The position numbers and the translations under genes are program-made. A stretch of DNA of 64,000 nucleotides. It comes from Porticoccus hydrocarbonoclasticus MCTG13d. Lineage in GTDB: Bacteria; Pseudomonadota; Gammaproteobacteria; Pseudomonadales; Porticoccaceae. Below, one piece after another: positions 9,947 through 37,093 of this stretch; the first letter of the stretch is position 1, and the number at the start of each line of letters is the position of its first letter. The stretch lies in assembly GCF_000744735.1 (NCBI RefSeq), contig NZ_JQMM01000001.1:1054001-1118000 (forward strand), written 5' to 3'. The notes under the pieces were generated by a model. The model worked only from the letters and a program-made list of their open reading frames with translations, was not told the DNA's origin and ran no database searches.

Positions 9947-9954
9947 TGCCGAAC
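9932..9954. terminator. Hairpin between convergent greA and yhbY
   Basis: Perfect 9-bp inverted repeat GTTCGGCAT / ATGCCGAAC with a 5-base loop, spanning the greA stop codon and lying 14 bases from the 3' end of the convergent yhbY. It has no clear T-run on either strand, so it may work as a bidirectional 3'-end stabiliser rather than a strong terminator. Confidence 0.5.
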
Positions 9955-9967
9955 GCCGCAATGCTCA

Positions 9968-10285: not shown

Positions 10286-10341
10286 AGAATGGTTGTCCTC
10301 TAAAACGGCGCGTATTCTAGCCGAACTGATAACAGGTTGAT

Positions 10342-10968
10342 ATGGGCCGGTCAAAAAGCAGCCAGCGCTGGTTACAGGAACACAATAGCGATCACTATGT
10401 AAAACGTGCTCAGCAAGATGGCTATCGTTCCCGTGCCAGCTATAAGCTGTTGGAGTTACACAAAAAAGATCGTTTGTTTAAACCCGGGATGACCGTGGTT
10501 GATCTGGGTGCTGCTCCCGGTGGTTGGTCTCAGGTGGCTGTGACGCTGGTCGGCGACAAGGGTCGTGTTGTTGCCTCGGATATTCTGCCTATGGACAGTA
10601 TAGCTGGCGTCGACTTCGTCGAGGGGGATTTTACCGAAGAGTCCGTACTCGATGAAATTCTGGAGTTGCTTGAGGGTCAACAGGCCGACCTTGTAATTTC
10701 AGATATGGCCCCCAATATGAGTGGTATGAAGGCTGTTGATCAACCCAAGGCCATGTATCTGATAGAGTTGGCGCTTGAATTGGCCTGCCAAATATTGAAA
10801 CCTGAAGGGGTTTTTGTTGCCAAAGTATTTCATGGCGAAGGTTTCGATGACTTTTTGCGCGATACAAAACGGCGTTTCCAGCAGGTCGTTACACGAAAAC
10901 CCGATGCGTCCCGCTCCCGATCCCGTGAAGTTTATCTGGTTGCCCGCGGGCTTAAGGTCTCGGACTAA
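10342..10968 (+). CDS. rlmE: 23S rRNA (U2552-2'-O)-methyltransferase RlmE
   Basis: SAM-dependent enzyme (FtsJ/RrmJ) that methylates U2552 in the A-loop of 23S rRNA late in 50S assembly. 208 residues, as in E. coli. Seen: SAM-binding motif [15 protein letters not shown], the catalytic-site Asp in [10 protein letters not shown], and the later Lys in [13 protein letters not shown], part of the K-D-K-E tetrad. It starts at the ATG at 10342. ftsH follows 98 bases downstream, the order found across gammaproteobacteria. Confidence 0.96.
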
Positions 10969-16602: not shown

Positions 16603-16687
16603 GCCCAAGTGGTGGAATTGGTAGACACGCTATCTTGAGGGGGTAGTGGCGAAAGCCGTGCCGGTTCAAGTCCGGCCTTGGGCACCA
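16603..16687 (+). tRNA. leuU: tRNA-Leu (anticodon GAG)
   Basis: 85-base class II tRNA with encoded CCA. Acceptor GCCCAAG pairs with CTTGGGC, the discriminator is A, the anticodon loop is CTTGAGG (anticodon GAG), the long variable arm is TGGCGAAAGCCG, and the T arm is GCCGG-TTCAAGT-CCGGC. It matches E. coli leuU in type and position after secG. Its 3' end is the left attachment site of the island: bases from 16665 on are repeated at 51474. The gene itself is intact. Confidence 0.97.
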
Positions 16688-16850: not shown

Positions 16851-18074
16851 ATGGCTACTCAACAGCTTACCGATGCCGCAGTAAAGCAAGCCGCTATCAA
16901 GGAGAAGCAATACAAGCTCTCTGACGGGGGTGGCCTGTATCTCCTGATAAAGCCTAACGGCTCCAAGTGCTGGCGATTTGACTACCGATTTGCCGGAAAA
17001 AGAAAAACCCTATCATTGGGGACATACCCCCTGATAAGCCTCAAATCAGTCAGGCTAAAACTGCTTGAGGCGAAGACCCTGTTATCTGATAACAAAGATC
17101 CTGCCAGTGAGAAACAGCGTGAGAAGCGTCAGGCGGATCTTGATCAAGGAAGTTTGTTCTCACCATTGGCTGAGGAATGGTGGAGTCATCAGAAGGGTAC
17201 ATGGAAGGATTTCCATGCTGACCGTGTTTGGGGGCGCATTAGGGATGATGTCTTGCCTTATATTGGTCATATGAGCATCACTGACATACAACCTCCGGAC
17301 ATCATTTCAGTCATTCGAAAGATTGAAAGCAGAGATGCGCTGGATGTGGCTTCCAGGGTGCTACAGGATATTGGGCGAATCTGTCGCTATGCCGTTCAGA
17401 CTGGGCGTCTAATGCACAACCCGGCAGCAGACTTGAAAGGAATCCTGAAAGGGCGAAAAACCAAGCATAGAGATTCTCTTCCAAGAGAAGAGTTACCGGG
17501 ATTTCTTGACGCGCTGAGTGGGTATGAGAACCAAGGGAGGCTTCTCACCAAATTAGCAATACAGTTGTTGTTGCTTACATTTGTTCGCTCAGGAGAGTTA
17601 AGGGGGGCAAAATGGGAAGAGTTCGACCTTGATCAACAGCTTTGGCGCATACCTGGTGATCGGATGAAAATGAAGACAGATCACTTGGTTCCGCTATCTG
17701 ACCAAGCATTGGCTGTTATAAAACAGATCAAGGAAATTAGTGGCCAGTACGAGCTCGTTTTCCCATCTGAGCGCAACCGCTTTGAGGTAATGAGCGATAA
17801 CACGATGCGTCGAGCTATCTTCAAACTAGGGTATGACGGGACTACACCAGGTAAGAGTAAAGCGGTTCCGCATGGCTTTCGAGCAACCGCGTCATCTATC
17901 CTGAATGAAGAGGGGTTCAACCCTGATGCCATAGAGAGGCAGTTGGCTCACCAAGAAAGAAATGGCGTAAGGGCGGCCTACACCCACCATGCGCGGTATT
18001 TAGATGATCGAAAAGAGATGATGCAGTGGTGGGCGGATTATTTGGAATCATTGAAGGTGCGCGACGGGATTTAA
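16851..18074 (+). CDS. P4-type tyrosine integrase
   Basis: Site-specific recombinase that would insert and excise the island at tRNA-Leu. 407 residues: N-terminal DUF4102 arm-binding domain (about 1-90, KLSDGGGLYLLIKPNGSKCW), SAM-like core-binding domain (about 105-190) and a catalytic domain. The catalytic set is visible and complete: Arg246 in VRSGELRGAKW, His341/Arg344 in HGFRATAS, His367 in QLAHQ, and Tyr383 in ARYLDDRKEMMQWWADYL. The ATG at 16851 abuts an inverted TTGACGGTAT site, and no strong ribosome site is seen. It is likely active, and its place next to attL agrees with its role. Confidence 0.95.
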   Translation: MATQQLTDAAVKQAAIKEKQYKLSDGGGLYLLIKPNGSKCWRFDYRFAGKRKTLSLGTYPLISLKSVRLKLLEAKTLLSDNKDPASEKQREKRQADLDQGSLFSPLAEEWWSHQKGTWKDFHADRVWGRIRDDVLPYIGHMSITDIQPPDIISVIRKIESRDALDVASRVLQDIGRICRYAVQTGRLMHNPAADLKGILKGRKTKHRDSLPREELPGFLDALSGYENQGRLLTKLAIQLLLLTFVRSGELRGAKWEEFDLDQQLWRIPGDRMKMKTDHLVPLSDQALAVIKQIKEISGQYELVFPSERNRFEVMSDNTMRRAIFKLGYDGTTPGKSKAVPHGFRATASSILNEEGFNPDAIERQLAHQERNGVRAAYTHHARYLDDRKEMMQWWADYLESLKVRDGI

Positions 18075-18400
18075 TCGTGGTCAGTCTCCGAAATCCAAGG
18101 CACGCTTTGGTCGCTCGACTACCCTGCGGATTCTGATTTTCACCTAGTGTATCCCTTGGGCCGTCGCCGGATCCTATGGATACCTATCATTGGGTGGTTT
18201 TTGAGGGGTTATCTAGCGCACTACATCGATGACAGTTCTGGCCTGCCTTTAGGCTTGAAGGTAGTTTCTCTATTAAGACGTTCATAGGCGGCGAGGATTA
18301 CCGAGGCATCAATCGAACGAAGCGAGTTCGCTGGGGAGCTTGCAGGCATCATGCTCTCCAACAAAATCCATTAAAACCAGCTCAAATCGACTGAAAGCGG
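18075..18400. other. Integrase-BREX intergenic region
   Basis: About 326 bases with no supported gene. One plus frame stays open from the integrase stop to about 18288 and reads protein-like (SLDYPADSDFHLVYPLGRRR), but it has no ATG or ribosome site; it could be a gene remnant. A small inverted repeat CGAAC/GTTCG (18314-18330) could be an operator. The BREX promoter starts at the right edge. Confidence 0.4.
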
Positions 18401-18427
18401 TTGACGATAGTGCCTCTACTTTATACT
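18401..18427 (+). promoter_or_regulatory. Predicted sigma-70 promoter of the BREX operon
   Basis: TTGACG at 18401-18406 and TATACT at 18422-18427, separated by 15 bases, which is shorter than the optimum of 17. It lies about 70 bases upstream of the HTH gene that opens the operon. No other promoter-like gap exists until after brxL, so this probably drives the whole run. Confidence 0.55.
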
Positions 18428-18496
18428 GTCGTGTCACTTCGTCCCGAGGTTTGGCTAGCAATCTCAGGATCTAATAACCTATTTGAGTTGCCAGGA

Positions 18497-18706
18497 ATGA
18501 CCGAAACCGATGATCGCTGGTTATCCATCAGTGAAATCTGCCTTCACCTGGGAGTCAGCAAGGACACCGTCTACAAGTGGATAGACAGGCAAGATATGCC
18601 CGCTCACCGCATGGGCAGACTGTGGAAGTTCAAGAAAGACGAAGTCGATCAGTGGATTAAGGATGGTGGCGCTGCCGATACTTCCGCCTCCGGGGCAGAT
18701 GATTGA
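18497..18706 (+). CDS. Small helix-turn-helix (excisionase/MerR-like) protein, BREX-linked
   Basis: A 69-residue DNA-binding protein. I start it at the ATG at 18497, although the AGGA before it leaves almost no spacing; an upstream TTG at 18488 is possible. The body is a single winged helix of the excisionase type: WLSISEICLHLGVSKDTVYKWI, then HRMGRLWKFKKDEVDQWI, as used by Xis and phage regulators. Its TGA overlaps the brxA ATG (TGATG), so it is the first gene of the BREX operon. It may regulate BREX, taking the place held elsewhere by the WYL-type regulator BrxR, or act as an excisionase for the island. Which of the two cannot be told from sequence. Confidence 0.8.
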   Translation: MTETDDRWLSISEICLHLGVSKDTVYKWIDRQDMPAHRMGRLWKFKKDEVDQWIKDGGAADTSASGADD

Positions 18707-19320
18707 TGGTTGCTGTCCGCTATCAAATGTCCTTCACCTCGGGGGGACTGCTTCACCGCGAGTCGATCCGACTTGCTGAGCTGTATTTGGAGCTTGGCGA
18801 CTGGGAAGCGGTAAAGGAAACTGCGCTAGCTGGCAACCTCCTTCAAGTGCGGGCGCAGAGCACGGCCCGACGCCAAATCCGGGAAATTCTGTCGCGGCTC
18901 AAGCTCTTGAGTAGCGAGGAGCTGAGGTGTTTGGTACAGGGCACTTATCAGGAGCAGGCCAGCCTTCTCTGGGTGGTTATCTGCCGACGTTACCAGTTTA
19001 TCCAGGATTTTACTCTAGAGGTATTGCGCGAGCACTTTGCGAACTTGAAGACCCACTTGAATCCAGATGATTACGAAGCTTTCTATAACAAGAAGGCTGA
19101 GTGGCATCCGGAGCTGGACGCCATCAGCAATTCGACTCGCCTGAAGCTCAAGCAGGTTATCTTTCGCATGCTGCGCGAAGCCAACCTATTGACTGCTGAT
19201 TACAGCATTCACCCGGTGCTTCTCTCTCCGAGCCTGGTGGCAATCATTCAACGCAGCAATGCAGAATCTCTTCGTTATCTTCCCGGCGTCGCTGCAACCA
19301 AGACAGGAGTCAGAGCGTGA
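18706..19320 (+). CDS. brxA: BREX protein BrxA (DUF1819)
   Basis: Core component of type 1 BREX, a small DNA-binding inner-membrane-independent protein in characterised systems; its exact role in phage exclusion is unsettled. 204 residues from the ATG at 18706, the usual family size. Recognised by the DUF1819 pattern: MSFTSGGLLHRESIRLAELY near the start, an all-helical body, FYNKKAEWHPELDAIS, and the C-terminal region with FRMLREANLL and IHPVLLSPSL. It is coupled at both ends: its start overlaps the HTH stop and its TGA overlaps the brxB GTG (GTGA). Confidence 0.93.
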   Translation: MVAVRYQMSFTSGGLLHRESIRLAELYLELGDWEAVKETALAGNLLQVRAQSTARRQIREILSRLKLLSSEELRCLVQGTYQEQASLLWVVICRRYQFIQDFTLEVLREHFANLKTHLNPDDYEAFYNKKAEWHPELDAISNSTRLKLKQVIFRMLREANLLTADYSIHPVLLSPSLVAIIQRSNAESLRYLPGVAATKTGVRA

Positions 19321-19928
19321 ACAGGGATATTGAAAAGCAGCCATTACCGGTTCGTTACCAGCACCTATACGACGTCATCTCTGGCGAGCGCTTCCTCAAG
19401 AAACAGGGACTGAACAGTGAAGTGCCTTTCTTTATCTGTCCGTTCAAGCCAGAAGAAGCGGTGGAAATGTCCCGCCTGAGCCGACAGCTGGTCAACCGGC
19501 TCGAACAGACTGGCGTCCGAGTGTTGGAAATCAATCTCTACGATTTGTCTGTTGAGATCCTCAAGGGGGAAAATATCTGGGACCGCGCCCTCGAAATTGA
19601 GCCGACGGTTTCCAAGCACGAGTTCCTGGAGTTTATGCAGAGCGTGCTGGATCCGGAGAACAACTTGATTCCGGCCATTGCAGCCCGACTGTCCCTTCAA
19701 GAGTTTGATGTGCTGTTCCTTGCCGGCGTGGGGGAGGTTTTCCCCTACATCCGCTCACACAACGTGTTGAACAACCTGCAGAGCACCGCCAAGGATCGGC
19801 CGACTGTCATGTTCTTCCCCGGCGAGTACACACACTCGGTAGAAAAGGGGGCATCCCTGGACCTCTTTGGCCGCCTCCACGACGACAAGTACTACCGAGC
19901 CTTCAATATATTTCACTGCGAGCCTTGA
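19317..19928 (+). CDS. brxB: BREX protein BrxB (DUF1788)
   Basis: Core BREX component of the DUF1788 family, 203 residues, within the family range. GTG start at 19317, overlapping the brxA stop. Characteristic segments: HLYDVISGERFLKKQGLNSE at the N-terminus, VPFFICPFKP, the central FDVLFLAGVGEVFPYIRSH, and TVMFFPGEYTH, followed by the basic/aromatic end HDDKYYRAFNIF. The fold suggests an alpha/beta protein. No catalytic role is established for the family; it is required for BREX in studied hosts. brxC starts 28 bases downstream. Confidence 0.92.
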   Translation: MNRDIEKQPLPVRYQHLYDVISGERFLKKQGLNSEVPFFICPFKPEEAVEMSRLSRQLVNRLEQTGVRVLEINLYDLSVEILKGENIWDRALEIEPTVSKHEFLEFMQSVLDPENNLIPAIAARLSLQEFDVLFLAGVGEVFPYIRSHNVLNNLQSTAKDRPTVMFFPGEYTHSVEKGASLDLFGRLHDDKYYRAFNIFHCEP

Positions 19929-19956
19929 TGGCCGATGATCCTGCGAGGAAAAAGTG

Positions 19957-22900
19957 ATGCAGCTCAAGCGCATATTTGAGAAACCGGTAGATCGCACTAT
20001 AGAGGGCGTGATCAAGGCTGACGATGACGCCAGTCTGCGCCTCGAAATTGAGGAGTACGTGCTGACCAAGGAGGTCGAGGCTCGACTGGAGAGCTTCCTG
20101 GATGCCTACAATAACTTCGAGGGCGCCAACGGCGTATGGGTATCAGGCTTCTTTGGCTCAGGTAAATCCCACCTGCTCAAGATGTTGGCCCTTTTGCTGG
20201 AAAATCGGCTCATCGACGGTGCGGCAACCCTCGACCTGTTCCTGCCCAAGTGCAACGACAACGAGATCCTGCGCGGCGATCTCAAGCGCTCGGCTGCCAT
20301 TCCCTCCCGGAGCATTCTGTTCAATATCGATCAGAAAGCCGATGTCATCAGCAAAACCCAGATCGATGCATTGCTGGCAGTGTTCGTGAAAGTCTTCGAC
20401 GAAATGTGTGGCTACTATGGCAAGCATGGTCACATCGCTCAGTTTGAGCGAGACCTGGACAGCCGAAATCTGTATCAGCAGTTCCAGGACACCTATGAAA
20501 GCATCGCCGGCCGATCCTGGCAAAAAGGCCGGGAACAGGCGCTGCTTGAGGGCGCCAACATCGCTCGCGCCTATGCCCAGGTGACTGGAACCGATGAGGA
20601 GAACACCAAAGGCATTCTCGACAAGTATCGCGCCCAGTATCGGGTGTCCATTGAAGACTTTGCCGATCAGGTCAAAGCCTACATAGACCAGCAGGAGAGC
20701 GGATTCCGGCTCAACTTCTTCATCGATGAGGTGGGTCAGTACGTTGCCGACAACGTCAAACTGATGACCAACCTGCAAACCATTGCCGAGAGCCTGGCCA
20801 CAAAGTGCCGAGGACAGGCGTGGATCATCGTCACCGCTCAGGAGGATATGAGCAACGTCGTCGGGGAGATGAATCGTCAGCAGAGTAATGATTTCACCAA
20901 GATCCAGGCTCGTTTTGCCAATCGGATGAAGCTGACCAGCACCAACGTGGCGGAGGTAATCCAGAAGCGCCTGCTGCTCAAGAACGAAGAAGGCGTGGCC
21001 GTGCTGTCGGACATCTACCACCGCGAGATGAACAACTTCAAAACCCTGTTCGATTTCGCCGACGGGTCGGTGACCTTCAAAAACTACCGTGACCGGGAGC
21101 ACTTCATCCACAGCTACCCGTTTATCCCCTATCAGTTCGATCTGTTTCAGTCAGCGATCCAGAATCTGTCCCAGCACAATGCATTTGAGGGCCAACACAG
21201 CTCCGTAGGCGAGCGATCCATGCTGGGCGTCTTCCAACAGGTGGCCGTACATATTGGGGGCCACTCTATCGGCCAACTGGCTACCTTTGACCTCATGTTC
21301 GAGGGAATTCGCACCGCACTCAAATCCCATATTCAGAGTGCGATCCAGCAGGCTGAGCGTAACCTCGAAGATCCACTGGCTCTGCGCCTGCTCAAGGCTT
21401 TGTTCCTCGTCAAATATATCCGGGAGTTCAAGGCCAGCCACCACAACTTGTCCATCCTGGTGATGAACTGTTTCCAGTGCGATTTACCCAAATTGCGCAA
21501 GGAAGTAGAACAGGCTCTGAGCCTGCTCGAGCAGCAAACCTACATTCAGCGCAACGGCGGGCTTTACGAATACCTCACCGATCAGGAAAAGGACGTCGAG
21601 CAGGAGATCAAGAACACCTCGGTCGAGAACAGTGATGTCACCGCTGAACTTGAGAAAATCGTGTTCGACCAGATTATTCGGACACGCAAGATTCGCTACG
21701 AAGACAACGGCCAAGACTACATCTTCACCCGCAAACTCGACGACAAACATTTGGGGCGGGAATATGAGCTGGCCATCAACGTCATCACCCCTTTTCATGA
21801 GCACGCCGACAACGACGATATGCTCAGAACCCGCTCAACCTACGAGCGCAACGAACTGATGGTGGTCATGCCCAGTGATGACCGCATCATGCGCGACCTG
21901 CTGATGTACAAGCGCACAGAGAAGTACGTCGCCCAAAACACCTCCATGAATCAGCAGGAATCGATGCAGCGCATCCTGTCCGACAAGAGTGCCCAAAACC
22001 GTCAGCGTTATGCAGAACTGCAACAGCGTCTTCAAGTCCTTCTAGGCAAGGCCCGCCTGCTGGTCGGTGGCACCGAGCTGGATACCGGACGAGAAGACGC
22101 TCAGAATCGTATCACCAAGGGATTTTATGAACTGATAGCCCTCGCTTATCCCAATCTGCGCATGCTGCGCAATGTGGTGTACATCGAAGCGGACGTGGTG
22201 AAGTGCCTGAAGGAGTCTGCCAAGGGACTGATAGGCGCCGATACCACAACCCTGTCCGAAGCTGAGCAGGAAATGTTGGCCTTCATCCAGAGCAATCAGC
22301 GGGGCGGCGTCAGAACCACCATCAAGAGCCTGCTGGAGAAGTTCGAACGCGGCCCCTACGGCTGGTACTACGCCGCCATTCTCTACACCCTGGCGAGTCT
22401 GTGTGCCCGGGGCAAACTCGAAGCCCGCGCCGATGGCAACCTGTTGGAGGAGGATACCCTCGAAAGAGCCCTCCTCAACACCCATGGTCAGGGCAACGTG
22501 GTGCTGGAGCCCCAGGTGGAATTCAGTGCTTCACAGATTCGTGCCCTTAAGGAGTTTTACGAGGACTTCTTTGCCAGCCCAGTCAAGGCCAACGAGGCCA
22601 AGGCACTGGGGAGGGAAGTAAGCGAGGCTTTCAAGGCACTGATCAGCGACCAGCTCACACCACTGCAGGCCCAGGTTGACCAATATCCGTTACTTCAGGC
22701 GCTGCAACCGGTGGTTGAGCGACTGCGAGAGTTGGCTAGCAAACCCTACACCTGGTATCTCACTGAGCTGGTTCGGCAAGAGGGTGAGTTACTGGATTTG
22801 AAGGAAAGTGTCCTCGACCCGATCCAAAAATTTATGAGCGGCCCGCAAAAGCAAATCTACGAAAACACTCAGCGGCTGCTGCAGGAGCACGAGAGCAATC

Positions 22901-23520
22901 TGATGTATCTCGGCGGTGACACCGGCGCCACTTTACGCGCAGCTCTGGCCGATCCTGAGTGCTTCAAGGGCAACCGCATGCAGCAGGTAAAGGCGGATCT
23001 TGACAGCCTACAGGTTGAACTGGATCGCACCATTGATGCCGAGCTGATTCAGGCGAAAGATGCCTTTGCCTCCTTGCGCGGGCGCCTGAGTGGTATGTCC
23101 GAATTCTCTGCCCTGTCCCCAGATCAACAGTCCCTGCTCACCCGCACATTTGACGAGGCGGAGCAACGTATCGCCAGCCGCCGGCTAATTGCAGAGATTC
23201 GCGACGGCCTGCGCAATTTTGAAGACAACGACTATCCCCGGCTGTTGTCGCAGCTCGCTAATTGGGGCCAGCCACCCATGTCGGATCAATCGGAGCCGCC
23301 ATTTGATGAACCCCGGCAGCAGAATATCGGTGAGCCAACCGCTACGCCGCCCATCCCGACCAAAGCGCCGCAAACTGTGGAGTACGTCAATCGCAAGCGC
23401 ATCGATGTCCCCTTCGATAAGGCCTGGCTAGCCGATGAGGGCGATGTAGAGCGCTATTTAGAGGCGGTCAGAGAAGCACTGCTGACAGAAATCCGTTTGG
23501 GTAAAAGGATCCAGATATGA
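19957..23520 (+). CDS. brxC: BREX P-loop ATPase BrxC
   Basis: Large AAA+-like ATPase of type 1 BREX. 1187 residues from the ATG at 19957, which has GAGGA 7 bases upstream; the GTG at 19954 is the alternative. Visible: Walker A GFFGSGKSHLLKM (about 64-76), Walker B NFFIDEVGQYVAD, and a sensor-like strand AWIIVTAQEDM, then a long mostly helical C-terminal half. The family is thought to couple ATP hydrolysis to assembly with PglX and PglZ. Its stop overlaps the next gene by 4 bases (ATGA). The next gene is not pglX as in canonical loci but a helicase. Confidence 0.95.
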   Translation: MQLKRIFEKPVDRTIEGVIKADDDASLRLEIEEYVLTKEVEARLESFLDAYNNFEGANGVWVSGFFGSGKSHLLKMLALLLENRLIDGAATLDLFLPKCNDNEILRGDLKRSAAIPSRSILFNIDQKADVISKTQIDALLAVFVKVFDEMCGYYGKHGHIAQFERDLDSRNLYQQFQDTYESIAGRSWQKGREQALLEGANIARAYAQVTGTDEENTKGILDKYRAQYRVSIEDFADQVKAYIDQQESGFRLNFFIDEVGQYVADNVKLMTNLQTIAESLATKCRGQAWIIVTAQEDMSNVVGEMNRQQSNDFTKIQARFANRMKLTSTNVAEVIQKRLLLKNEEGVAVLSDIYHREMNNFKTLFDFADGSVTFKNYRDREHFIHSYPFIPYQFDLFQSAIQNLSQHNAFEGQHSSVGERSMLGVFQQVAVHIGGHSIGQLATFDLMFEGIRTALKSHIQSAIQQAERNLEDPLALRLLKALFLVKYIREFKASHHNLSILVMNCFQCDLPKLRKEVEQALSLLEQQTYIQRNGGLYEYLTDQEKDVEQEIKNTSVENSDVTAELEKIVFDQIIRTRKIRYEDNGQDYIFTRKLDDKHLGREYELAINVITPFHEHADNDDMLRTRSTYERNELMVVMPSDDRIMRDLLMYKRTEKYVAQNTSMNQQESMQRILSDKSAQNRQRYAELQQRLQVLLGKARLLVGGTELDTGREDAQNRITKGFYELIALAYPNLRMLRNVVYIEADVVKCLKESAKGLIGADTTTLSEAEQEMLAFIQSNQRGGVRTTIKSLLEKFERGPYGWYYAAILYTLASLCARGKLEARADGNLLEEDTLERALLNTHGQGNVVLEPQVEFSASQIRALKEFYEDFFASPVKANEAKALGREVSEAFKALISDQLTPLQAQVDQYPLLQALQPVVERLRELASKPYTWYLTELVRQEGELLDLKESVLDPIQKFMSGPQKQIYENTQRLLQEHESNLMYLGGDTGATLRAALADPECFKGNRMQQVKADLDSLQVELDRTIDAELIQAKDAFASLRGRLSGMSEFSALSPDQQSLLTRTFDEAEQRIASRRLIAEIRDGLRNFEDNDYPRLLSQLANWGQPPMSDQSEPPFDEPRQQNIGEPTATPPIPTKAPQTVEYVNRKRIDVPFDKAWLADEGDVERYLEAVREALLTEIRLGKRIQI

Positions 23521-25616
23521 GCCGAATGGAGGCTGAGGCGCTTTTGCGCACCGCGCTCGGCAACCCCCATGCGGAATTCCGCGATGGCCAGTGGGAGGCC
23601 ATCGATGCTCTAGTTACCCAACGCAAGAAGCTGCTGGTGGTCCAGCGCACCGGCTGGGGTAAAAGCTCGGTGTACTTTGTCGCCACTCGGCTGCAGCGAG
23701 ACCGGGGATTCGGCCCCACCATTATCGTGTCGCCGCTGCTGGCCCTGATGCGCAACCAGATCGAAGCAGCGGATCGGCTAGGGATTCGCGCCATCACCAT
23801 GAACTCGACCAACCGGGAGCAGAATGGGGAGCTTACCCGACGGGTGCTCAACAACGAGGTGGATTGCCTGCTGATCTCACCCGAGCGGCTTGCTAACGAT
23901 GAGTTCGCCGAAACGGTACTGCAGCCTATTGCCGACAATATAGGCCTGTTGGTGGTGGACGAAGCCCACTGTATCTCCGACTGGGGCCACGATTTCAGGC
24001 CCGATTACCGACGTCTGCTCAATGTTCTGCGCCAGTTACCGCTCAATATGCCGGTTCTGGCCACCACTGCCACTGCTAATGATCGCGTCATCAACGACGT
24101 GGTGCAGCAGCTGGGCAATATCGAGGTCATGCGCGGATCGCTGGTGCGCGAAAGTCTTGCACTGCAAAACATCACCTTGCCGGATCAGGCCAGTCGTCTT
24201 GCTTGGCTGACAGACGCAATTCCCACTATTGAAGGCGCCGGCATCGTTTATGTGCTCACCAAGCGGGATGCGGAACAGGTCAGGAATTGGCTGGTCAGCC
24301 AAGGCATTGACGCCCAAGCCTACTACAGTGGCATAGAGCACCCTGACTTCCCCACATCCAATACCTATCGCGAGCATCTTGAAGACCTGCTGCTCAGCAA
24401 CCGCCTAAAGGTACTGGTGGCCACCACCGCGCTGGGCATGGGTTACGACAAGCCGGACCTCAGCTTTGTTATCCACTATCAAGCGCCAGGCTCTATAGTA
24501 GGCTACTACCAGCAAGTGGGCCGTGCCGGACGCGGCATCGATGACTCTTTTGGTATCTTGCTGTCCGGAGAAGAGGACGAGCGCATCCACGACTACTTCC
24601 GCCGCTCCGCCTTTCCCGACGAGACGGAGGTGAATCAAATTTTGGCTCTACTGGAAGACCACGATGGTCTCTCGGTCCCAAATATTCAGCAATATCTCAA
24701 TCTCCGCCAAGGCCAAATCGAGAAGGTACTGAAGTACCTCAGTGTAGAAAGTCCCTCCCCTGTCATTAAGGATCGTTCTCGGTGGCTGCGGACACCTGTG
24801 TCCTTCCAGCTGGATCGCGAGCGCATCGCCCGCCTAACCGCCCAGCGAGAAGTGGAATGGCAGGAGGTGCAGGGCTACATCAATGCCGATGGCTGCCTGA
24901 TGGAATACCTCCGCCAGTCGCTCGACGACCCTGAAGCCGAACCCTGCGGTCAGTGCGCCAATTGTCTGGAAAAACCCATTTTTTCCACCGCGGTCGATCG
25001 CCAGAAGGTCGTCGAGGCAGCTCGTTTTCTCAGGCACTCTGAACTGGTCATCAGCCCCAAAAAACAGGTGGCGGCCAATGCCTTCCCGGTGTATGGCTTT
25101 CGCGGCAATCTTCTTCCCGAGTTGCTCGCTGCCGAAGGGCGTATCCTCAGTCGCTGGGGCGATGGCGGCTGGGGAGGTCTGGTAGAAGACGACAAGCACG
25201 GGGGCCATTTCCGCGATGAGCTGGTGGATGCTGTCATCGAGATGATCCGACAGCGGTGGCAGCCTGCACCAGCCCCGGAGTGGGTCACCTGCGTACCTTC
25301 CTTGAACCACACGAACCTGGTTCCTGACTTTGCCCAGCGCCTTGCCGCCAGGTTGGGTCTGCCCTTTGTACCAGCAGCCATTGCCAAAGTCCGCGCCAAT
25401 CAGCCACAGAAATTGCAAAATAATCGGTATCACCAATGCAGCAATCTGGACGGTGTGTTTGCAGTGGACCACTCGATTCCCTCCGGCCCCGTTTTACTGG
25501 TGGACGACGTGGTGGACTCCGGCTGGACCATGACCGTCCTCGCGGCGTTACTGCGTCGCAACGGATGTGGCAATGTCTATCCCGTGGCTCTAGCTTCATC
25601 CAGTACGAGCGATTGA
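23517..25616 (+). CDS. RecQ-type helicase fused to phosphoribosyltransferase-like domain
   Basis: 699-residue superfamily 2 DNA helicase inside the BREX operon. Seen in order: RecQ motif 0 FRDGQ (21-25), Walker A RTGWGKS (44-50), DEAH box (148-151) with the RecQ aromatic loop HCISDWGHDFRPDY, motif V/VI region TALGMGYDKPDL and YYQQVGRAGRG, and a RecQ-like zinc cluster of four cysteines ending PCGQCANCLE. The last ~110 residues carry a PRPP-loop signature, VLLVDDVVDSGWT, typical of type I phosphoribosyltransferases and of ComF. It overlaps brxC by 4 bases, and a DprA-like gene starts 3 bases after its stop. It probably unwinds or remodels DNA during BREX action; what the PRTase-like domain binds is unknown. 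Confidence 0.9.
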   Translation: MSRMEAEALLRTALGNPHAEFRDGQWEAIDALVTQRKKLLVVQRTGWGKSSVYFVATRLQRDRGFGPTIIVSPLLALMRNQIEAADRLGIRAITMNSTNREQNGELTRRVLNNEVDCLLISPERLANDEFAETVLQPIADNIGLLVVDEAHCISDWGHDFRPDYRRLLNVLRQLPLNMPVLATTATANDRVINDVVQQLGNIEVMRGSLVRESLALQNITLPDQASRLAWLTDAIPTIEGAGIVYVLTKRDAEQVRNWLVSQGIDAQAYYSGIEHPDFPTSNTYREHLEDLLLSNRLKVLVATTALGMGYDKPDLSFVIHYQAPGSIVGYYQQVGRAGRGIDDSFGILLSGEEDERIHDYFRRSAFPDETEVNQILALLEDHDGLSVPNIQQYLNLRQGQIEKVLKYLSVESPSPVIKDRSRWLRTPVSFQLDRERIARLTAQREVEWQEVQGYINADGCLMEYLRQSLDDPEAEPCGQCANCLEKPIFSTAVDRQKVVEAARFLRHSELVISPKKQVAANAFPVYGFRGNLLPELLAAEGRILSRWGDGGWGGLVEDDKHGGHFRDELVDAVIEMIRQRWQPAPAPEWVTCVPSLNHTNLVPDFAQRLAARLGLPFVPAAIAKVRANQPQKLQNNRYHQCSNLDGVFAVDHSIPSGPVLLVDDVVDSGWTMTVLAALLRRNGCGNVYPVALASSSTSD

Positions 25617-25619
25617 CCA

Positions 25620-27047
25620 ATGCTTTCACCCAATACTCAGGCGATACTCCTGCTCACTGGCCACTTTTCCAAAGCTGGCAACGAGGATGTACGACCACTG
25701 ACAAATAGGGAGTGGGGCCAATTCGCCCTCTGGCTCAAGGAGCAAGGGCTAACCCCGGAAAAGTTACTGGACAGCAATCCGGAAGCACTGCTGGCGCACT
25801 GGCCGGATAGTAAAATCACCACCGGCCGGTTGCTGCAGCTGCTCAATCGCGGTTCCGCCCTCGCCCTCGCAGTAGAGAAATGGCTGCGTTCAGGCCTCTG
25901 GATTATCACCCGCTCCGATGGGGACTACCCTCAGCGGCTCAAGATGCACCTGAAAACCGATTCGCCGCCCGTCCTCTTTGGCTGCGGCAACCGTAGCCTG
26001 CTCAACCGGGGAGGTATCGCCGTGGTGGGCTCCCGCAAGGCCAATGATGACGACCTCGCCTACAGCCGTCAGCTGGGCCAGTTAGTGGCGGCCCAAGGCT
26101 ATTCCATCGTGTCGGGGGGCGCCCGCGGTATCGATGAATTCGCTATGCTTGGATCGCTAGAGGCCGAGGGCACAGTGATCGGCGTCATGGCCGACAGCCT
26201 CTTGCGGGCAGCGTCTTCCTCCAAATATCGCCGCCACCTCGTCAACAACAATCTGGTATTGATTTCGCCCTTTTACCCGGAAGCAGGGTTCAACCCCGGC
26301 AACGCCATGCAGCGCAACAAGTACATTTATTGCCTGGCCGATGTTGCCGTAGCCGTCCATTCAGGCACCTCCGGTGGTACCTGGAACGGCGTAGTGGAAA
26401 ACCTCAAAAAGGGCTGGGTGCCCATGTGGGTAAAGCCCAGCGATGACGCCACTGCCGGTAACAGCCTGCTGGTCAAACAGGGGGCTCGCTACCTTTCGGA
26501 ACCACTTGACCAGCTCGATTTAAATGTCTTTATCACTTCCACATCAACCCCAGTAGCTGAGCCTAAGGGCGACCTGTTTGGCCAGTCGGCTACCAACATC
26601 AGCGAGCCTCAGGTATCACCATTCACCCCCGAGCCTGGACGCGAGCAAAAAGATACCGAGCAAGAACAGCCGCCTGCCTGGACTGAGACATCAGAACTTG
26701 AACCAAAGCCAACATCTGACGAACCGCAATCGGTACCTGAGCCTGAACTGGGCTCAACAGCTGAGTCAGAGCCTCAATTGACGCCGGTTGTAAGGCCCGA
26801 GGAGAAAACCAACCCCAATCTATCCGACTTGGGATTCTACGACCTATTTCTGGCAAAACTGGCAAGCTGGTGTACCAGTAAAGCGTTGAGTGTGGAACAA
26901 CTCCAGGAATTGTCTGGCCTGCACAAAAGCCAGCTCACTGGCTGGTTGAAACAGGCAGTGGACGAAGGCCATATCACCAAACTCAGCCGTCCGGTGCGCT
27001 ATCGTTGCCAGACCGCACAACAAAATGACATGTTCAAGGACAAGTAA
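25620..27047 (+). CDS. DprA-like DNA-processing protein
   Basis: 475 residues. DprA loads RecA on incoming single-stranded DNA in transformation; this homologue lies in a phage-defence operon. N-terminal helical part (about 1-125), then the DprA/Smf Rossmann domain (about 135-285) with AVVGSRKANDDDLAYSRQLG, SIVSGGARGIDEFAM and DVAVAVHSGTSGGTWNG. Next comes a low-complexity Glu/Pro/Thr linker (about 310-395), then a winged helix (LSVEQLQELSGLHKSQLTGWLKQ begins about 420). The linker is much longer than in competence DprA. It starts 3 bases after the helicase and ends 6 bases before pglX, so it is co-translated with BREX. It is likely a single-strand DNA sensor or loader paired with the helicase; this is inferred. 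Confidence 0.88.
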   Translation: MLSPNTQAILLLTGHFSKAGNEDVRPLTNREWGQFALWLKEQGLTPEKLLDSNPEALLAHWPDSKITTGRLLQLLNRGSALALAVEKWLRSGLWIITRSDGDYPQRLKMHLKTDSPPVLFGCGNRSLLNRGGIAVVGSRKANDDDLAYSRQLGQLVAAQGYSIVSGGARGIDEFAMLGSLEAEGTVIGVMADSLLRAASSSKYRRHLVNNNLVLISPFYPEAGFNPGNAMQRNKYIYCLADVAVAVHSGTSGGTWNGVVENLKKGWVPMWVKPSDDATAGNSLLVKQGARYLSEPLDQLDLNVFITSTSTPVAEPKGDLFGQSATNISEPQVSPFTPEPGREQKDTEQEQPPAWTETSELEPKPTSDEPQSVPEPELGSTAESEPQLTPVVRPEEKTNPNLSDLGFYDLFLAKLASWCTSKALSVEQLQELSGLHKSQLTGWLKQAVDEGHITKLSRPVRYRCQTAQQNDMFKDK

Positions 27048-27053
27048 CACCCC

Positions 27054-30000
27054 ATGGAAACCGCCAAGCTCAAGAAATTTGCCCAGTACGCCCGCCGCAA
27101 CCTGATCGAGCAGGTATCGATCCGACTCAAACAGGTGACTGCACACGAAAGCAGCGCCAGCCGGGAGCACCCCGCTGCTCTCAAGAAACTGCACGAGGCT
27201 ATCAAAGAGATTGGTGAGGACGAGGTCATCGAACAGGTGGCCTACATCTGGTTCAACCGCTTCTGCGCCCTGCGCTTCATGGATGTGAACCGCTACACCC
27301 GCATCGGCGTGGTGTCGCCCGCCGAAGGACAGTTCCAGCCCGAGATTTTGGCCGAGGCCAAGATGGGGCACATTGACGACAAGATGGTGCCCGACAGCTC
27401 TTCATCTCAAAGTAAGCGGCAGCAGATCTTCGCTCTGCTCGACGGCAAAGCACCCAGCCGCGACCCGCAGGGCGAGGCGTACCGCCTGCTGGTGGTGGCC
27501 GCCTGCAACTTCTGGAACAAGGCGATGCCGTTCCTGTTTCAGCGCATCGATGACTACACCGAGCTGCTGATGCCCGATGACCTGCTCTCGGGCAACTCCA
27601 TCCTCGCCTATACCCGCGAAGCAATGACGCCGGATGCCTGCGAGGATGTCGAGGTAATTGGCTGGCTCTACCAGTTCTACATCTCCGAGAAGAAGGACGA
27701 GGTGTTCGACGGCCTGAAGAAGAACAAGAAAATCACGCCCGAGAACATCCCAGCCGCCACCCAGCTTTTTACCCCGCATTGGATCGTGCGCTACCTGGTG
27801 GAAAACTCCCTCGGCCGCCTGTGGCTGCTCAACCGTCCCGGCTCGAAGCTGGCCCTACAGATGGATTACTATATCAAGCCAGCGCCTGCGGCGGATGGTA
27901 AAGAGCAGGCCGAAACGGACTTCCTGCGCATCGCCAAGCCGGAAGAGATCAAGATCTGCGACCCGGCATGTGGCTCCGGCCACATGCTCACCTATGCCTT
28001 TGACCTGCTCTACGCCATCTACGAGGAGGAAGGCTACGAGCCCGCCGAGATTCCGGAGAAAATCCTCACGAATAACCTCTACGGCATCGAGATCGACGAA
28101 CGTGCCGGGGAGCTGGCCGCCTTTGCCCTGACCATGAAGGCCCGCGCCAAACAGCGCCGGTTCTTCAACAAGGGCGTCAAGCCGAACATCTGCGTGCTGG
28201 AGAATGTCCACTTCGACGAGGGCGAGATGAAGAACTACATGGACTTTGTCGGGCGCGACCTGTTCACCGTGCCGCTGCAAACCACCCTGCGACAGTTCGA
28301 AGAGGCCGACAACTTCGGTTCACTGATCCGCCCGGATGTCACCGACGTGGACGGCATGCTCAGGATTCTGGAGTCAAAGAACGTCTCCGGGCAGTTGTTT
28401 ATCAGCATGACTCACCAGAAGGTGCTGCAAGCCCTGCGGCAGGCCGATTACCTGAGTCCCCAATACCATGTGGTGATTGCCAATCCGCCGTATATGGGTG
28501 GCAAAGGGATGAATGGGCGGTTGGCGGCGTGGCTTAAGGACAACTACGAGGATGTAAAGTCAGATTTATTCTCTGCCTTTATCGTTCGCAACACTGAGAT
28601 GACGCTGCCAAGTGGCCAGCTCGGGTTCATGTCACCCTTTGTGTGGATGTTTATCTCCTCCTACGAAAAGCTTCGCAGCTTTTTGATTAACCAGAAGACC
28701 ATTACGTCACTGGTTCAGTTAGAGTATTCAGGTTTCGATGGTGCTACCGTGCCGATTTGCACATTCACTGTTGAGAATGCTCATCGCCCGGATTTCAAAG
28801 GTGGCTATGTCAGACTTTCCGATTTTCGTGGCTCAGAAAACCAAGGCCCGAAAACGCTGGAGGCTATTAAGAATTCTGATTGCGGCTGGTTCTATCGTGC
28901 ATCGGCGTCGGATTTTAGAAAAATCCCCGGAAGTCCTATTGCGTACAATTTGGGGCGAGCAACTTACGAGGCATATTCGTTACATCCCAAAATAGATGAG
29001 TTTGGAGAAACAGGATCAGGACTTCAAACAAGCGATAACAATCGATTTCTGCGGCAATGGTTTGAAGTGGATTACCCAAACATTGAATTTAGAGCGCATG
29101 ATCCTTCCACTGCAAAAAACAGCTTATGCAAATGGTTTCCACACAAAAAAGGCGGCCCCTATCGTAAATGGTACGGAAATAATGATTTTGTGTTGAATTG
29201 GGGTAATGGCGGCTCAGAATTGTATGAATTCGCTAGCAACTTGTATGGCTCACCTACGAGGATCATAAAAAATACTCACAGGTACTATCAAAGAGCAATT
29301 ACGTGGTCACATACGACCAGCTCTCATTTCAGTGCTAGGGTACTTGAAGAAGGATTTATTTTTAACGTCGAAGCGCCATCCTTGTTTGGTGTCGAAGAAG
29401 AGCTATTTTTACCATACCTATGTTCTGTTGTCGGAATTCGCTTTATAGAACTCGCGAATCCTACATTGCACTTTGTATCGAATAGTGTTGGCGAACTTCC
29501 TTTCGCTTACGACACCGTAAAGACTCAGCGGGAAGCGTTAAAAACAATCTGCGATGATTCTGTAAAGCATTCTAAGTCCGATTGGAGTGCCTACGAAACA
29601 TCCTGGGACTTCACCGGCACGCCATTGCTTAACCCTGACCATCGCCAGCCAACCCTAAAAGCCACCTATCAGAAGCTCCGCGCCAACTGGCGTGAGATGA
29701 CGATAGAGATGCAGCGGCTGGAGCAAGAAAACAACCGCATCTTTATTGACGCCTACGGTCTGGAGGATGAGCTGGATGAAAAGGTTGACCTCAACGAAAT
29801 CACCCTGACCTGCAACCCGCACTACCGCTACGGCAACGACAAGAGCGAGGACGAGCTGGAGGCGCTGCTGCTGGCCGACACCATGCGCGAGCTGATTTCC
29901 TATGCGGTGGGCTGCATGTTCGGCCGCTATGCGTTGGACAAGCCAGGGCTGATTCTGGCCAACCAGGGCGAGACCATAGAGGACTACCTGAAGCGGGTTC

Positions 30001-30623
30001 CGGAGCCGAGCTTCTCGGCCGATGACGACAACGTTATCCCCATGCTCGATGGGGACTGGTTCACGGACGACATCGCCGAGCGCTTCCGCAAGTTCCTGCG
30101 CGTGGCTTTTGGCGATGAGCACTACGAGGCCAACCTCAAGTTCGTCGAAAAGGCGCTGGGCAAGAATGGCAAGGCCCGCGACATCCGCGATTACTTCCTC
30201 AAGGATTTCTATAGCGACCATGTGAAGCGCTACAAGAAGCGCCCCATCTATTGGTTGTTCAGCAGCCCCAAGGGCAGCTTCAACGCTTTGATCTACATGC
30301 ACCGCTACCGGCCCGATACGGTCAGCGTGGTGCTCAATGACTACCTGCGCGAGTTCCGCACCAAGCTCACCTCCCACAAGAACCATCTTGAGGCGGTCAG
30401 CATCAGCGCCAGCAGCAACCAGGGCGAGAAGACCAAGGCACTAAAGGAGATTGAGCAGATCAGAAAAATGCTTGTTGAAATGGAGGAGTATGAGCGCGAA
30501 GTACTCTACCCATTGGCAACTAAACAGGTGGAGATCGACCTCGATGACGGCGTGAAGGTCAACTACCCCAAACTCGGCGCGGCCTTGAAGAAGATCCCCG
30601 GCCTGGATGCGAAAGGGGATTAG
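27054..30623 (+). CDS. pglX: BREX adenine-specific DNA methyltransferase PglX (BrxX)
   Basis: Methylates an adenine in a non-palindromic host site so that BREX spares self DNA. 1189 residues. Seen: N-terminal helical domain (KLKKFAQYARRNLIEQV), SAM motif I DPACGSGHMLTYAF (from residue 303), catalytic NPPY at 477-480 (IANPPYMGG), a target-recognition region (about 490-870), and a C-terminal helical domain with RYKKRPIYWLFSSPKGSF, diagnostic of PglX. The stretch from about 28.5 to 29.6 kb is visibly more AT-rich than both flanks, as if the recognition region had been exchanged. It follows the DprA-like gene by 6 bases and precedes the BrxU-like gene by 2. Confidence 0.95.
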   Translation: METAKLKKFAQYARRNLIEQVSIRLKQVTAHESSASREHPAALKKLHEAIKEIGEDEVIEQVAYIWFNRFCALRFMDVNRYTRIGVVSPAEGQFQPEILAEAKMGHIDDKMVPDSSSSQSKRQQIFALLDGKAPSRDPQGEAYRLLVVAACNFWNKAMPFLFQRIDDYTELLMPDDLLSGNSILAYTREAMTPDACEDVEVIGWLYQFYISEKKDEVFDGLKKNKKITPENIPAATQLFTPHWIVRYLVENSLGRLWLLNRPGSKLALQMDYYIKPAPAADGKEQAETDFLRIAKPEEIKICDPACGSGHMLTYAFDLLYAIYEEEGYEPAEIPEKILTNNLYGIEIDERAGELAAFALTMKARAKQRRFFNKGVKPNICVLENVHFDEGEMKNYMDFVGRDLFTVPLQTTLRQFEEADNFGSLIRPDVTDVDGMLRILESKNVSGQLFISMTHQKVLQALRQADYLSPQYHVVIANPPYMGGKGMNGRLAAWLKDNYEDVKSDLFSAFIVRNTEMTLPSGQLGFMSPFVWMFISSYEKLRSFLINQKTITSLVQLEYSGFDGATVPICTFTVENAHRPDFKGGYVRLSDFRGSENQGPKTLEAIKNSDCGWFYRASASDFRKIPGSPIAYNLGRATYEAYSLHPKIDEFGETGSGLQTSDNNRFLRQWFEVDYPNIEFRAHDPSTAKNSLCKWFPHKKGGPYRKWYGNNDFVLNWGNGGSELYEFASNLYGSPTRIIKNTHRYYQRAITWSHTTSSHFSARVLEEGFIFNVEAPSLFGVEEELFLPYLCSVVGIRFIELANPTLHFVSNSVGELPFAYDTVKTQREALKTICDDSVKHSKSDWSAYETSWDFTGTPLLNPDHRQPTLKATYQKLRANWREMTIEMQRLEQENNRIFIDAYGLEDELDEKVDLNEITLTCNPHYRYGNDKSEDELEALLLADTMRELISYAVGCMFGRYALDKPGLILANQGETIEDYLKRVPEPSFSADDDNVIPMLDGDWFTDDIAERFRKFLRVAFGDEHYEANLKFVEKALGKNGKARDIRDYFLKDFYSDHVKRYKKRPIYWLFSSPKGSFNALIYMHRYRPDTVSVVLNDYLREFRTKLTSHKNHLEAVSISASSNQGEKTKALKEIEQIRKMLVEMEEYEREVLYPLATKQVEIDLDDGVKVNYPKLGAALKKIPGLDAKGD

Positions 30624-30625
30624 GC

Positions 30626-32509
30626 ATGGCAGGAGAATACGAGAAGGCGATTACTATTCAGGAGGCTATCGCCGCGATTAATGCTGGCGATTATCTACTG
30701 CCCGCGATCCAGCGCAAATTCGTCTGGAGCAGTCACCAGATCTGCGTTTTGTTCGATTCCATCATGAGGGATTACCCAATTAACTCTTTCATGATGTGGG
30801 AAGTTAAGAGTGACAAAATCAAAAACGACTACAAATTTTATGAGTTCCTGAAATCCTATTGCCAGCGTTTCAGCGAGGAAAACCCGCACAAGCCGACCCA
30901 TGCCAGCTATAAAAACTTCAAGGCAATCATCGACGGGCAGCAGCGCCTGACCTCCTTGTATATTGGCTTGTGTGGGACTTATGCGTATAAGCAGCCTCGC
31001 GTGTGGTGGCCGGAAACCCGGGATGACAAGGTGCTGCCGCCACGCAAATTGTACCTTGATCTTGCGCAGCCTGTGGACTCGCAAGACAACGAGTCCCTGA
31101 TGCTTTACAACTTCAGATTCCTGACTGACGCCCAGTACCAGAGCGCCTCGGCTGCTGATGATGCAAAGCATCATTGGTTTTGTCCGCATGATGTCCTTAA
31201 GATGCCACAGGTTGAGGGTTGTAATCATGTTTGGAGCAAGGTCGTAAAACCTTATCTAGAAACCAATGATCTGCTGGATAACGAGTATGCCGGAGATACA
31301 CTCGGGCAGTTGTATGACGTAATCCGCTCCCAGCGCATCATTCATTATTTCAATGAAACCAGCCAGGAGATTGATCATGTGCTGGATGTATTTATTCGTA
31401 CGAACAGTGGCGGCACCAAGCTCGACTTTTCAGACTTGTTGATGTCGATTGCCGTAGCAAACTGGGATGGAGACTTCCGCCAGGATTTGGATGGGCTGAT
31501 TCGCCAGATTCACCAGAGTGCTGATATGGGCTTTTACATGGAGCGTGATTGGGTGCTGAAAACCTGTCTGGTGCTCACTGGTGCAGACGTTCGCTTTAAG
31601 GTAAAAAACTTCAGTGCCGAGCAGGTGCGTCAGATACAGTCCTCCTGGGCTTTAATCAAAGACTGCATTTTGGAGACCCTGCGGCTGATCCGTCGGTTCG
31701 GTATTAACGCTCAGTCGCTGACATCCAAAAATGCTGCGATCCCGATTTGTTATTACCTGTACAACAAGCAAGTAGGTGATGAGCCGCTATTTAAGAGCAT
31801 AAACAACCTTGCTCGGCATAATGAGCAGCGGGATTTGCTCAGCCGCTGGTTTTATATGGCGTTGCTAAAAGGGGTATTTGGCGGACAGGCGGATACCATA
31901 CTGAAATCCATGCGAGATGTTCTTGATCAGCATCTTGAACAAACGTATTTCCCGTTGCAGGAGGTGGTAGATCGATACACCGCAACCAACAAGGATCTTC
32001 GATTTGATGACGAGTACATGGAGAACTTGTTGAATATTGAGCATGGGGAAGGACGCTGCCGTGCCCTGTTGCATTTGCTGTTCCCGGAAATGAATGTAAC
32101 GGAAGTTTTCCATATCGATCATCTGCACCCACGCAACCACTTTGACAAGAAATGCCTGAGTAAGGTGGATTATCTTGTCAACGACCCGGACAAGATGGCG
32201 TTTTATGCCGAATCCCGTCATTGGAACAGCATTGCCAACCTTCATCTGCTCAATGATTCCCAGAATATAAGCAAATCGGATCGGCCTCTGAAGGACTGGC
32301 TGATGGATTCATCTGTCCACATAACTGCGGGAAGCTTGTTGGTCGAGGGCGTCGATCTTGGCTTTGAGGCTTTTCCGGAATTTTTTGCCGCCCGCAGAGC
32401 AGCACTCAAAGAGCGCTTGAAAAGCCGCGTGTTTATTTCCCATTCCATTCCGGCAGATCCCGAGCCTGACGATATGGATGAAGAGGTGGTCGAGGATGTT
32501 TTGGAATGA
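30626..32509 (+). CDS. BrxU-like GmrSD-family type IV restriction enzyme (DUF262 + DUF1524)
   Basis: 627 residues joining the two halves of GmrS and GmrD. The N-terminal DUF262 domain has YLLPAIQRKFVW, the nucleotide-binding IDGQQRLTSLYIG (Asp103) and NSGGTKLDFSDLL. The C-terminal DUF1524 HNH-type nuclease has HIDHLHPRNHF (His496, His499) and SIANLHLLNDSQN followed by Lys and Asp residues. Such proteins cut DNA with modified cytosines (hydroxymethylated or glucosylated), which BREX methylation-based exclusion may miss. In the pEFER plasmid BREX locus, brxU occupies the same slot between pglX and pglZ. It overlaps pglZ by 4 bases (ATGA). Substrate specificity is inferred from the family. Confidence 0.9.
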   Translation: MAGEYEKAITIQEAIAAINAGDYLLPAIQRKFVWSSHQICVLFDSIMRDYPINSFMMWEVKSDKIKNDYKFYEFLKSYCQRFSEENPHKPTHASYKNFKAIIDGQQRLTSLYIGLCGTYAYKQPRVWWPETRDDKVLPPRKLYLDLAQPVDSQDNESLMLYNFRFLTDAQYQSASAADDAKHHWFCPHDVLKMPQVEGCNHVWSKVVKPYLETNDLLDNEYAGDTLGQLYDVIRSQRIIHYFNETSQEIDHVLDVFIRTNSGGTKLDFSDLLMSIAVANWDGDFRQDLDGLIRQIHQSADMGFYMERDWVLKTCLVLTGADVRFKVKNFSAEQVRQIQSSWALIKDCILETLRLIRRFGINAQSLTSKNAAIPICYYLYNKQVGDEPLFKSINNLARHNEQRDLLSRWFYMALLKGVFGGQADTILKSMRDVLDQHLEQTYFPLQEVVDRYTATNKDLRFDDEYMENLLNIEHGEGRCRALLHLLFPEMNVTEVFHIDHLHPRNHFDKKCLSKVDYLVNDPDKMAFYAESRHWNSIANLHLLNDSQNISKSDRPLKDWLMDSSVHITAGSLLVEGVDLGFEAFPEFFAARRAALKERLKSRVFISHSIPADPEPDDMDEEVVEDVLE

Positions 32510-35004: not shown

Positions 35005-35016
35005 GAGAACTGAGCC

Positions 35017-37065: not shown

Positions 37066-37093
37066 AAACAACCACAGGACGAGGAGGTTGGTG

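Follow-up and report, generated by a model that had tools for sequence, protein, structure and literature searches.

Toxin-antitoxin pairs made of a RecQ helicase fused to a phosphoribosyltransferase (PRTase) domain and a DprA-like partner are known as PsyrTA, alias RqlHI. RqlI interacts with RqlH and restrains its toxicity, which requires the PRTase domain; mutation of K49, D148 or D663 of RqlH alters that toxicity, and in the D663A variant the growth and SOS effects are abolished while a modest loss of viable counts stays (PMC4670107). The authors of that work already saw the likeness to the ComF operon and to DprA, and gave an argument that the pair has no part in transformation in E. coli (PMC4670107). 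Here we analysed a 64,000-nucleotide stretch of the genome of Porticoccus hydrocarbonoclasticus MCTG13d (NZ_JQMM01000001.1, positions 1,054,001 to 1,118,000 of the forward strand; hereafter the window, whose own numbering is used), in which two such genes lie inside a type 1 bacteriophage exclusion (BREX) operon. A previous reading of the window, made from its letters and open reading frames (the sequence-only reading), took them for a competence-derived DNA module of unnamed identity. Our results identify the pair as PsyrTA, which is probably a built-in second line of defence of this BREX operon.

The embedding of defence cassettes in other systems is established, as are the PsyrTA pair itself and recQ and dprA as extra genes of Acinetobacter BREX. 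PARIS lies within a Salmonella type 1 BREX (PMC11341690), DarTG2 sits between hsdS and hsdR (PMC12255303), PrrC is embedded in EcoprrI (PMC3874165), and a 2024 preprint, known to us via the literature citing it, treats embedded defences. PARIS in BREX, and DarTG2 and PrrC in type I restriction-modification (RM), resemble the present case in that a second, abortive or toxin module lies inside a methylation-based operon; they differ in that their proteins are unrelated to PsyrTA and none is a PRTase toxin. A 2022 paper names recQ, dprA and duf262 in a figure legend on the BREX modules of A. baumannii and describes additional genes between pglZ and pglX, the section concerned naming neither PsyrTA nor a function (PMC10117892). 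That arrangement is alike in having recQ and dprA within BREX, and the same layout is found in one of our loci (L141), an annotated Acinetobacter plasmid, but there the two genes lie between pglX and pglZ, whereas in the window they lie between brxC and pglX. RecQ, DprA, PRTase and PsyrT have 0 occurrences in the available main text of a 2026 BREX survey, supplementary tables aside (PMC12839542), and in the passages seen of the literature searched, which covered few subscription papers or preprints and no supplements, no text was found that describes PsyrTA as inserted repeatedly in BREX, type I RM and Hma operons. What is new is the PsyrTA identity of the BREX insert and the finding that it recurs in methylation-based operons of three kinds.

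Identity of the gene pair

The product of the first gene, PsyrT, matched PADLOC PDLC03928 with 1015 bits over residues 3-699, nearly the whole PsyrT length, and that of the second, PsyrA, matched PDLC03927 with 529 bits (E=1.7e-159). PsyrT consists of a RecQ helicase (residues ~1-487) fused to a C-terminal PRTase domain (~510-699); it showed Pfam matches to DEAD, Helicase_C and Pribosyltran, and its structure model has a predicted local distance difference test (pLDDT) value of 89.3. The helicase belongs to the RecQ family according to NCBIfam TIGR00614 (232.8 bits vs a cutoff of 219.8), with DEAH at 148-151 and cysteines at 477, 480 and 483, and the PRTase domain reached 29.1 against a Pfam cutoff of 26.3, with VLLVDDVVDSGWT at 659-671. 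K49, D148 and D663 of RqlH are the same letters at the same numbers in the window PsyrT. Among 95 aligned PsyrT rows (the short rows L023, L027, L046 and L136, as well as L101 and L102, being excluded; L numbers are our locus labels), K49 was present in 94, D148 in all 95 and D663 in 93, the other 2 being gapped, and D663 and D664 were kept together in 93 of the 93 ungapped rows. This conservation, together with the above-cutoff Pfam score, rules out that the PRTase domain is a mis-call. With E values of 0.04 to 1, the domain alone gave only weak sequence matches to solved PRTases and phosphoribosyl pyrophosphate synthetases; the fold comparison of the whole model reached residues 1-491 only, short of the PRTase domain.

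PsyrA carries a Rossmann domain matching Pfam DNA_processg_A (DprA, 137 bits), followed by a linker (~322-400) of predicted disorder, with pLDDT <50 over 322-333 and 336-400, and by a C-terminal stretch whose modelled helices and strands resemble a winged helix and which has no Pfam match. Linker and C-terminal stretch correspond to gaps in 25 of 97 PsyrA rows. Gene order, domains and catalytic positions are thus shared with PsyrTA/RqlHI, and the window pair is this known toxin-antitoxin pair; it differs in the long linker with its winged-helix-like end and in being joined by an overlap to a BREX operon. In two cyanobacterial loci (L023, L027) PsyrT occurs as two adjacent reading frames and not as one fused protein.

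ShosT is not known to carry a RecQ helicase. ShosTA, a PRTase toxin with the DprA-like ShosA, is another close known system: ShosA (8zva) is the best solved-structure match of the window PsyrA by model comparison (by sequence, 9vzo is best). As the identity of the window pair it was ruled out by the RecQ domain of the window toxin and by PADLOC scores of 98 bits for ShosA vs 529 bits for PsyrA. The NCBI models for DprA (89.4 bits vs a cutoff of 191.15) and ComF (21.8 vs 233.55) both stayed under their cutoffs, and ComFA is a helicase different from RecQ. These scores, the RecQ-type helicase and the toxin-antitoxin behaviour of the homologue RqlHI led us to reject a novel competence module.

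The sequence-only reading had correctly recognized the RecQ-type helicase with its DEAH box and cysteines, and its PRTase call stands. Its DprA with a long linker and a winged helix was borne out as to the Rossmann domain and the linker, the winged helix being a resemblance seen in the model. Its DNA-handling pair beside BREX likewise holds as a tight operon with these domains, but a competence-derived module of unnamed identity is not supported.

The BREX operon of the window

A complete type 1 BREX spans 18703-37065 in the order brxA-brxB-brxC-psyrT-psyrA-pglX-DUF262-pglZ-brxL (Pfam, PADLOC and NCBIfam), a type 1 gene set with a type A pglZ, in agreement with the sequence-only reading. The coordinates and the three junctions which that reading gave for the pair between brxC and pglX were exact: brxC runs to 23520 and psyrT begins at 23517 (-4, an ATGA overlap); psyrT runs to 25616, followed after +3 bases by psyrA from 25620; and psyrA runs to 27047, followed after +6 bases by pglX from 27054. 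The features of the region are as follows.

16603-16687: tRNA-Leu(gag), upstream of the BREX operon, beside the integrase-like gene
16851..18074, + strand: tyrosine-type integrase, likely an island attachment end, named by eye from the sequence; adjoins tRNA-Leu(gag)
18703..19320, + strand: brxA (Pfam BrxA, E=3e-52)
19317..19928, + strand: brxB (Pfam BrxB, E=1.5e-40)
19954..23520, + strand: brxC (NCBIfam BREX_BrxC, 1215 bits), its end overlapping the psyrT start by 4 bases
23517..25616, + strand: psyrT (rqlH-like), predicted toxin (PADLOC, Pfam, structure model, conserved K49/D148/D663)
25620..27047, + strand: psyrA (rqlI-like), predicted antitoxin/sensor (PADLOC, Pfam DNA_processg_A, structure model)
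27054..30623, + strand: pglX, BREX-1 adenine methyltransferase (NCBIfam NF033452, 1459 bits)
30626..32509, + strand: DUF262/GmrSD_N gene (PADLOC HEC-05), second cargo, in the pglX-pglZ interval (Pfam, PADLOC)
32506..35004, + strand: pglZ type A (TIGR02687, 985 bits)
35017..37065, + strand: brxL with a C-terminal phospholipase D-like domain, MIT_C (TIGR02688, 664 bits; Pfam MIT_C)

The DUF262/GmrSD_N gene, absent from the sequence-only reading, is a third extra gene and overlaps pglZ by 4 bases; its DUF262 family also occupies the interval between brxC and pglX (brxC|pglX) in L117, L122 and L124. An internal promoter was not supported, as 7 promoter-like sites were found in 17900-37400 vs 10.9 expected from shuffles. 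With <=3 mismatches allowed, the 3' end of the tRNA-Leu was not found a second time within the window. The host genome is a single contig of 2.47 Mb in which the window PsyrT is the sole full-length PsyrT match, and BrxC of the window type was found in 0 of 16 other genomes searched of the genus (E <= 1e-30).

The brxC|pglX interval is a cargo site

Searching 390 genomes of the host's own order, we found PsyrT (E <= 1e-100) in 19 and BrxC (E <= 1e-60) in 27. Window aside, three of these genomes carry both, and in 3/3 PsyrTA lies between brxC and pglX, preceded in one of them by a Schlafen-type gene in the same interval. In genome G024 (L100), PsyrTA lies upstream of a divergent BrxC-like gene with 23% identity, under the BrxC threshold. 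The class sample gave 6 further PsyrT genomes and 4 further BrxC genomes, with no overlap. Pooling the BrxC genomes of the order (27), the class (4 new) and the phylum (9 new) yielded 40, the PsyrT search covering order and class only.

The brxC|pglX slot was readable in 38 of the 40 and was filled in 24 and empty in 14. PsyrTA occupies 4 of the 38 (window, L105, L106 and L127) and is missing from 34 of the 37 slots other than that of the window, which rules it out as a part of the BREX core. The remaining filled slots hold HEC-02-like genes (8; in L123, L129 and L130 only a HEC-02A-like ATPase gene, that of L123 being nearest to PtuA in one comparison), a Schlafen-type gene with HEC-02 (3) or alone (2), DUF262 (3) and PDC-M21 (4). 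Because 14 slots are empty and others hold varied cassettes, with PsyrTA in 4, brxC|pglX is a cargo site and PsyrTA is one of its cassettes. The 2026 survey counts Schlafen-type and OLD-ABC genes as auxiliary BREX effectors, in agreement with two of the cargo types found here (PMC12839542).

An exchange of cassettes between core genes is seen in L105 and L103, whose BrxC proteins are 99% identical and whose DNA is 94% identical from brxA through the Schlafen-type gene. After this gene L105 carries PsyrTA and L103 carries HEC-02AB, and homology resumes at pglX. A second divergent stretch lies within pglX and is probably the target-recognition region.

HEC-02A with HEC-02B was the commonest slot cassette here, in 8 of 38 slots (L103 at 8941-10535, L108, L109, L111-L113, L145 and L147). 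A reverse transcriptase-nitrilase gene (PADLOC RT_UG5-nitrilase) lies between pglX and pglZ of the PsyrTA-bearing BREX of L106 (14473-17496), and a related gene in L107, L115 and L119 has pglX-like open reading frames on both sides, as if pglX were interrupted.

PsyrTA recurs in BREX, type I RM and Hma operons

The relatives of PsyrT amounted to 101 distinct loci, window included, a non-random sample as 80 of them form a best-80 list; the plasmid records H1 and H3 were hand-picked from 11 with 80% coverage. PsyrA directly follows PsyrT in 91 of the 101. Within four same-strand genes of PsyrT, BREX genes were found in 8 loci, type I RM genes in 16 and Hma genes in 4, the last after removal of L057 (nearer ZorD/DpdE) and L004 (ambiguous); neighbours were named through profiles from few seeds, so that distant relatives may be missed and helicases over-called.

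In 16 of the 101 loci PsyrTA is flanked on both sides by the same system. Five are BREX (window, L085, L086, L097, L141), eight are type I RM, with the order hsdM-hsdS-psyrT-psyrA-hsdR in 8/8 (L006, L011, L061, L087, L090, L092, L133, L140), and three are Hma, with the order hmaB-psyrT-psyrA-hmaC (L001, L005, L031). This count includes the hand-picked plasmids L140 and L141, and dropping both and the window leaves 13 of 98. Four junctions only are used: brxC|pglX, pglX|pglZ, hsdS|hsdR and hmaB|hmaC. Family models confirmed HsdR, HsdS and HsdM of L087, HmaA, HmaB and HmaC of L001 and HmaB and HmaC of L031, the others being named by similarity to these. Annotated records are concordant: one is an E. 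coli IncF plasmid, and the other, from Acinetobacter, is a plasmid that carries brxABC-pglX-PsyrTA-DUF262-pglZ-brxL. The PsyrTA of the IncF plasmid was present at >=99% in 53 of 5,426 E. coli genomes, and in 2/2 of the records inspected besides the plasmid, out of 54, its position is hsdS|hsdR. For the 6 kb of the window itself, megablast gave no match in E. coli genomes, and 29 phage records had partial matches, 0 of which reached 80% PsyrT coverage.

Three other arrangements are worth describing. L025 (3-22090) reads BrxC-like, PglX, Ppl, PsyrT, PsyrA, MkoA, MkoB, so that PsyrTA has a BREX-like methyltransferase with Ppl on one side and a Mokosh system on the other. In L140 a small helix-turn-helix gene (8457-8681) stands just before hsdM-hsdS-psyrTA-hsdR, placed like the RptR repressor in the DarTG2 island. 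In the E. coli record H70 (NZ_CP124405.1, 3043220-3047991) the annotation within the PsyrTA match shows an IS3-family element as well as a 'ComF family protein' on its own, and the toxin gene appears disrupted.

A tree of 97 PsyrT proteins was built by a quick search (short rows L023, L027, L046 and L136 excluded; Shimodaira-Hasegawa-like approximate likelihood ratio test, SH-aLRT, supports only). On it the BREX label requires 6 changes, gains or losses alike, at least 5 of them forced by well-supported branches. The window protein groups with those of L085 and L086 (SH-aLRT 100). Clustering is stronger for the RM-linked proteins, which still need 9 changes. Repeated recruitment would be the simplest reading of this pattern.

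Discussion

The identity of the pair, its conserved catalytic residues, the overlap with brxC, the exchange at this slot in relatives, the scattered linkage to BREX and the embedding in RM and Hma operons form the basis on which we consider it fairly likely that PsyrTA is a cassette inserted in the brxC|pglX cargo site and read with BREX as a second, abortive defence line. According to this model, psyrTA would be co-transcribed with BREX and PsyrA would keep PsyrT inactive. If BREX is evaded or inhibited by a phage, or itself nicks the phage DNA, DNA in single-stranded or branched form may then engage RecQ and DprA, PsyrA would release PsyrT, and the freed PRTase would halt growth ahead of phage release. 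The 2026 survey proposed that nicks made by PglZ may act as a signal for auxiliary effectors (PMC12839542), one that a RecQ-DprA pair would suit, and in a P. aeruginosa panel 81.8% of the PsyrTA-bearing strains were phage-resistant, a correlation (PMC10855318).

Several observations weigh against this model. In 72 of the 101 loci (plus 1 ambiguous) the four genes on either side of PsyrT include none of BREX, type I RM or Hma, therefore PsyrTA does not require these systems, and the clustering of the BREX label on the tree is modest, 12 of 500 shuffles being as low (shuffle mean 7.8 changes). That cassettes swap easily speaks against BrxC or PglX being an obligate partner. In E. coli NILS69, expression of its PsyrTA slowed growth and phage protection was undetectable (PMC12409345), PARIS in the Salmonella BREX was inactive against every phage tested there (PMC11341690), and in a metagenome study defence islands had fewer PsyrTA than expected, although within such islands it colocalised with other families (PMC10924106). 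The trigger and the defence role of the window PsyrTA are themselves predictions from sequence.

A possible alternative, to which we give real though limited weight, is that the slot merely supplies a promoter and a place where insertion is safe, with PsyrTA acting alone or as an addiction module of the island, independently of BREX. The swap between L105 and L103, the scattering of the BREX label with its forced changes and the 72 relatives located elsewhere would fit passive cargo, as would the integrase-like gene beside tRNA-Leu, an island setting where addiction would pay. The confinement of the 16 embedded loci to four junctions speaks against it, although a plain insertion hotspot remains compatible with that confinement.

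We regard as rather unlikely that PsyrTA detects when the methylation system of the host is lost or inhibited, whether by anti-restriction proteins or by failure of PglX or HsdMS, and then stops the cell. PrrC for EcoprrI and PARIS for Ocr are model cases of such a sentinel, the former embedded in EcoprrI and the latter in Salmonella BREX; DarTG2 occupies the same hsdS|hsdR junction (PMC12255303), and PsyrTA recurs in BREX, RM and Hma. The subunits of these host systems are unrelated, however, so a specific protein contact would need rebuilding each time. Only tentatively can a separate, general reading be put forward, in which PsyrTA is a general fail-safe recruited repeatedly by BREX, type I RM and Hma, its RecQ-DprA part reading nicked or single-stranded DNA from an attack by the host system, or from an unfinished one, and bringing about growth arrest through the PRTase; if true, one sensor-toxin would serve three unrelated restriction engines.

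The proposal of the sequence-only reading, a competence-derived module processing entering single-stranded phage DNA for BREX, is very improbable: a DprA fold, a PRTase domain and a helicase do share one operon, but the helicase is RecQ, the DprA and ComF scores are sub-cutoff, RqlHI behaves as a toxin-antitoxin pair, and the genes are missing from most BREX slots read, being only sporadically near BREX (8 of 101 loci), an outcome that reading itself had named as contrary to it.

In summary, if PsyrTA does act as an abortive backup to BREX, a non-nuclease toxin would be added to the BREX backup effectors. That a single toxin pair is found again and again at few junctions of three methylation-based systems makes testable whether such systems carry their own fail-safe, and, as a follow-on question, whether that fail-safe is tuned to the DNA damage caused by the host system or to the inhibition of the host system.
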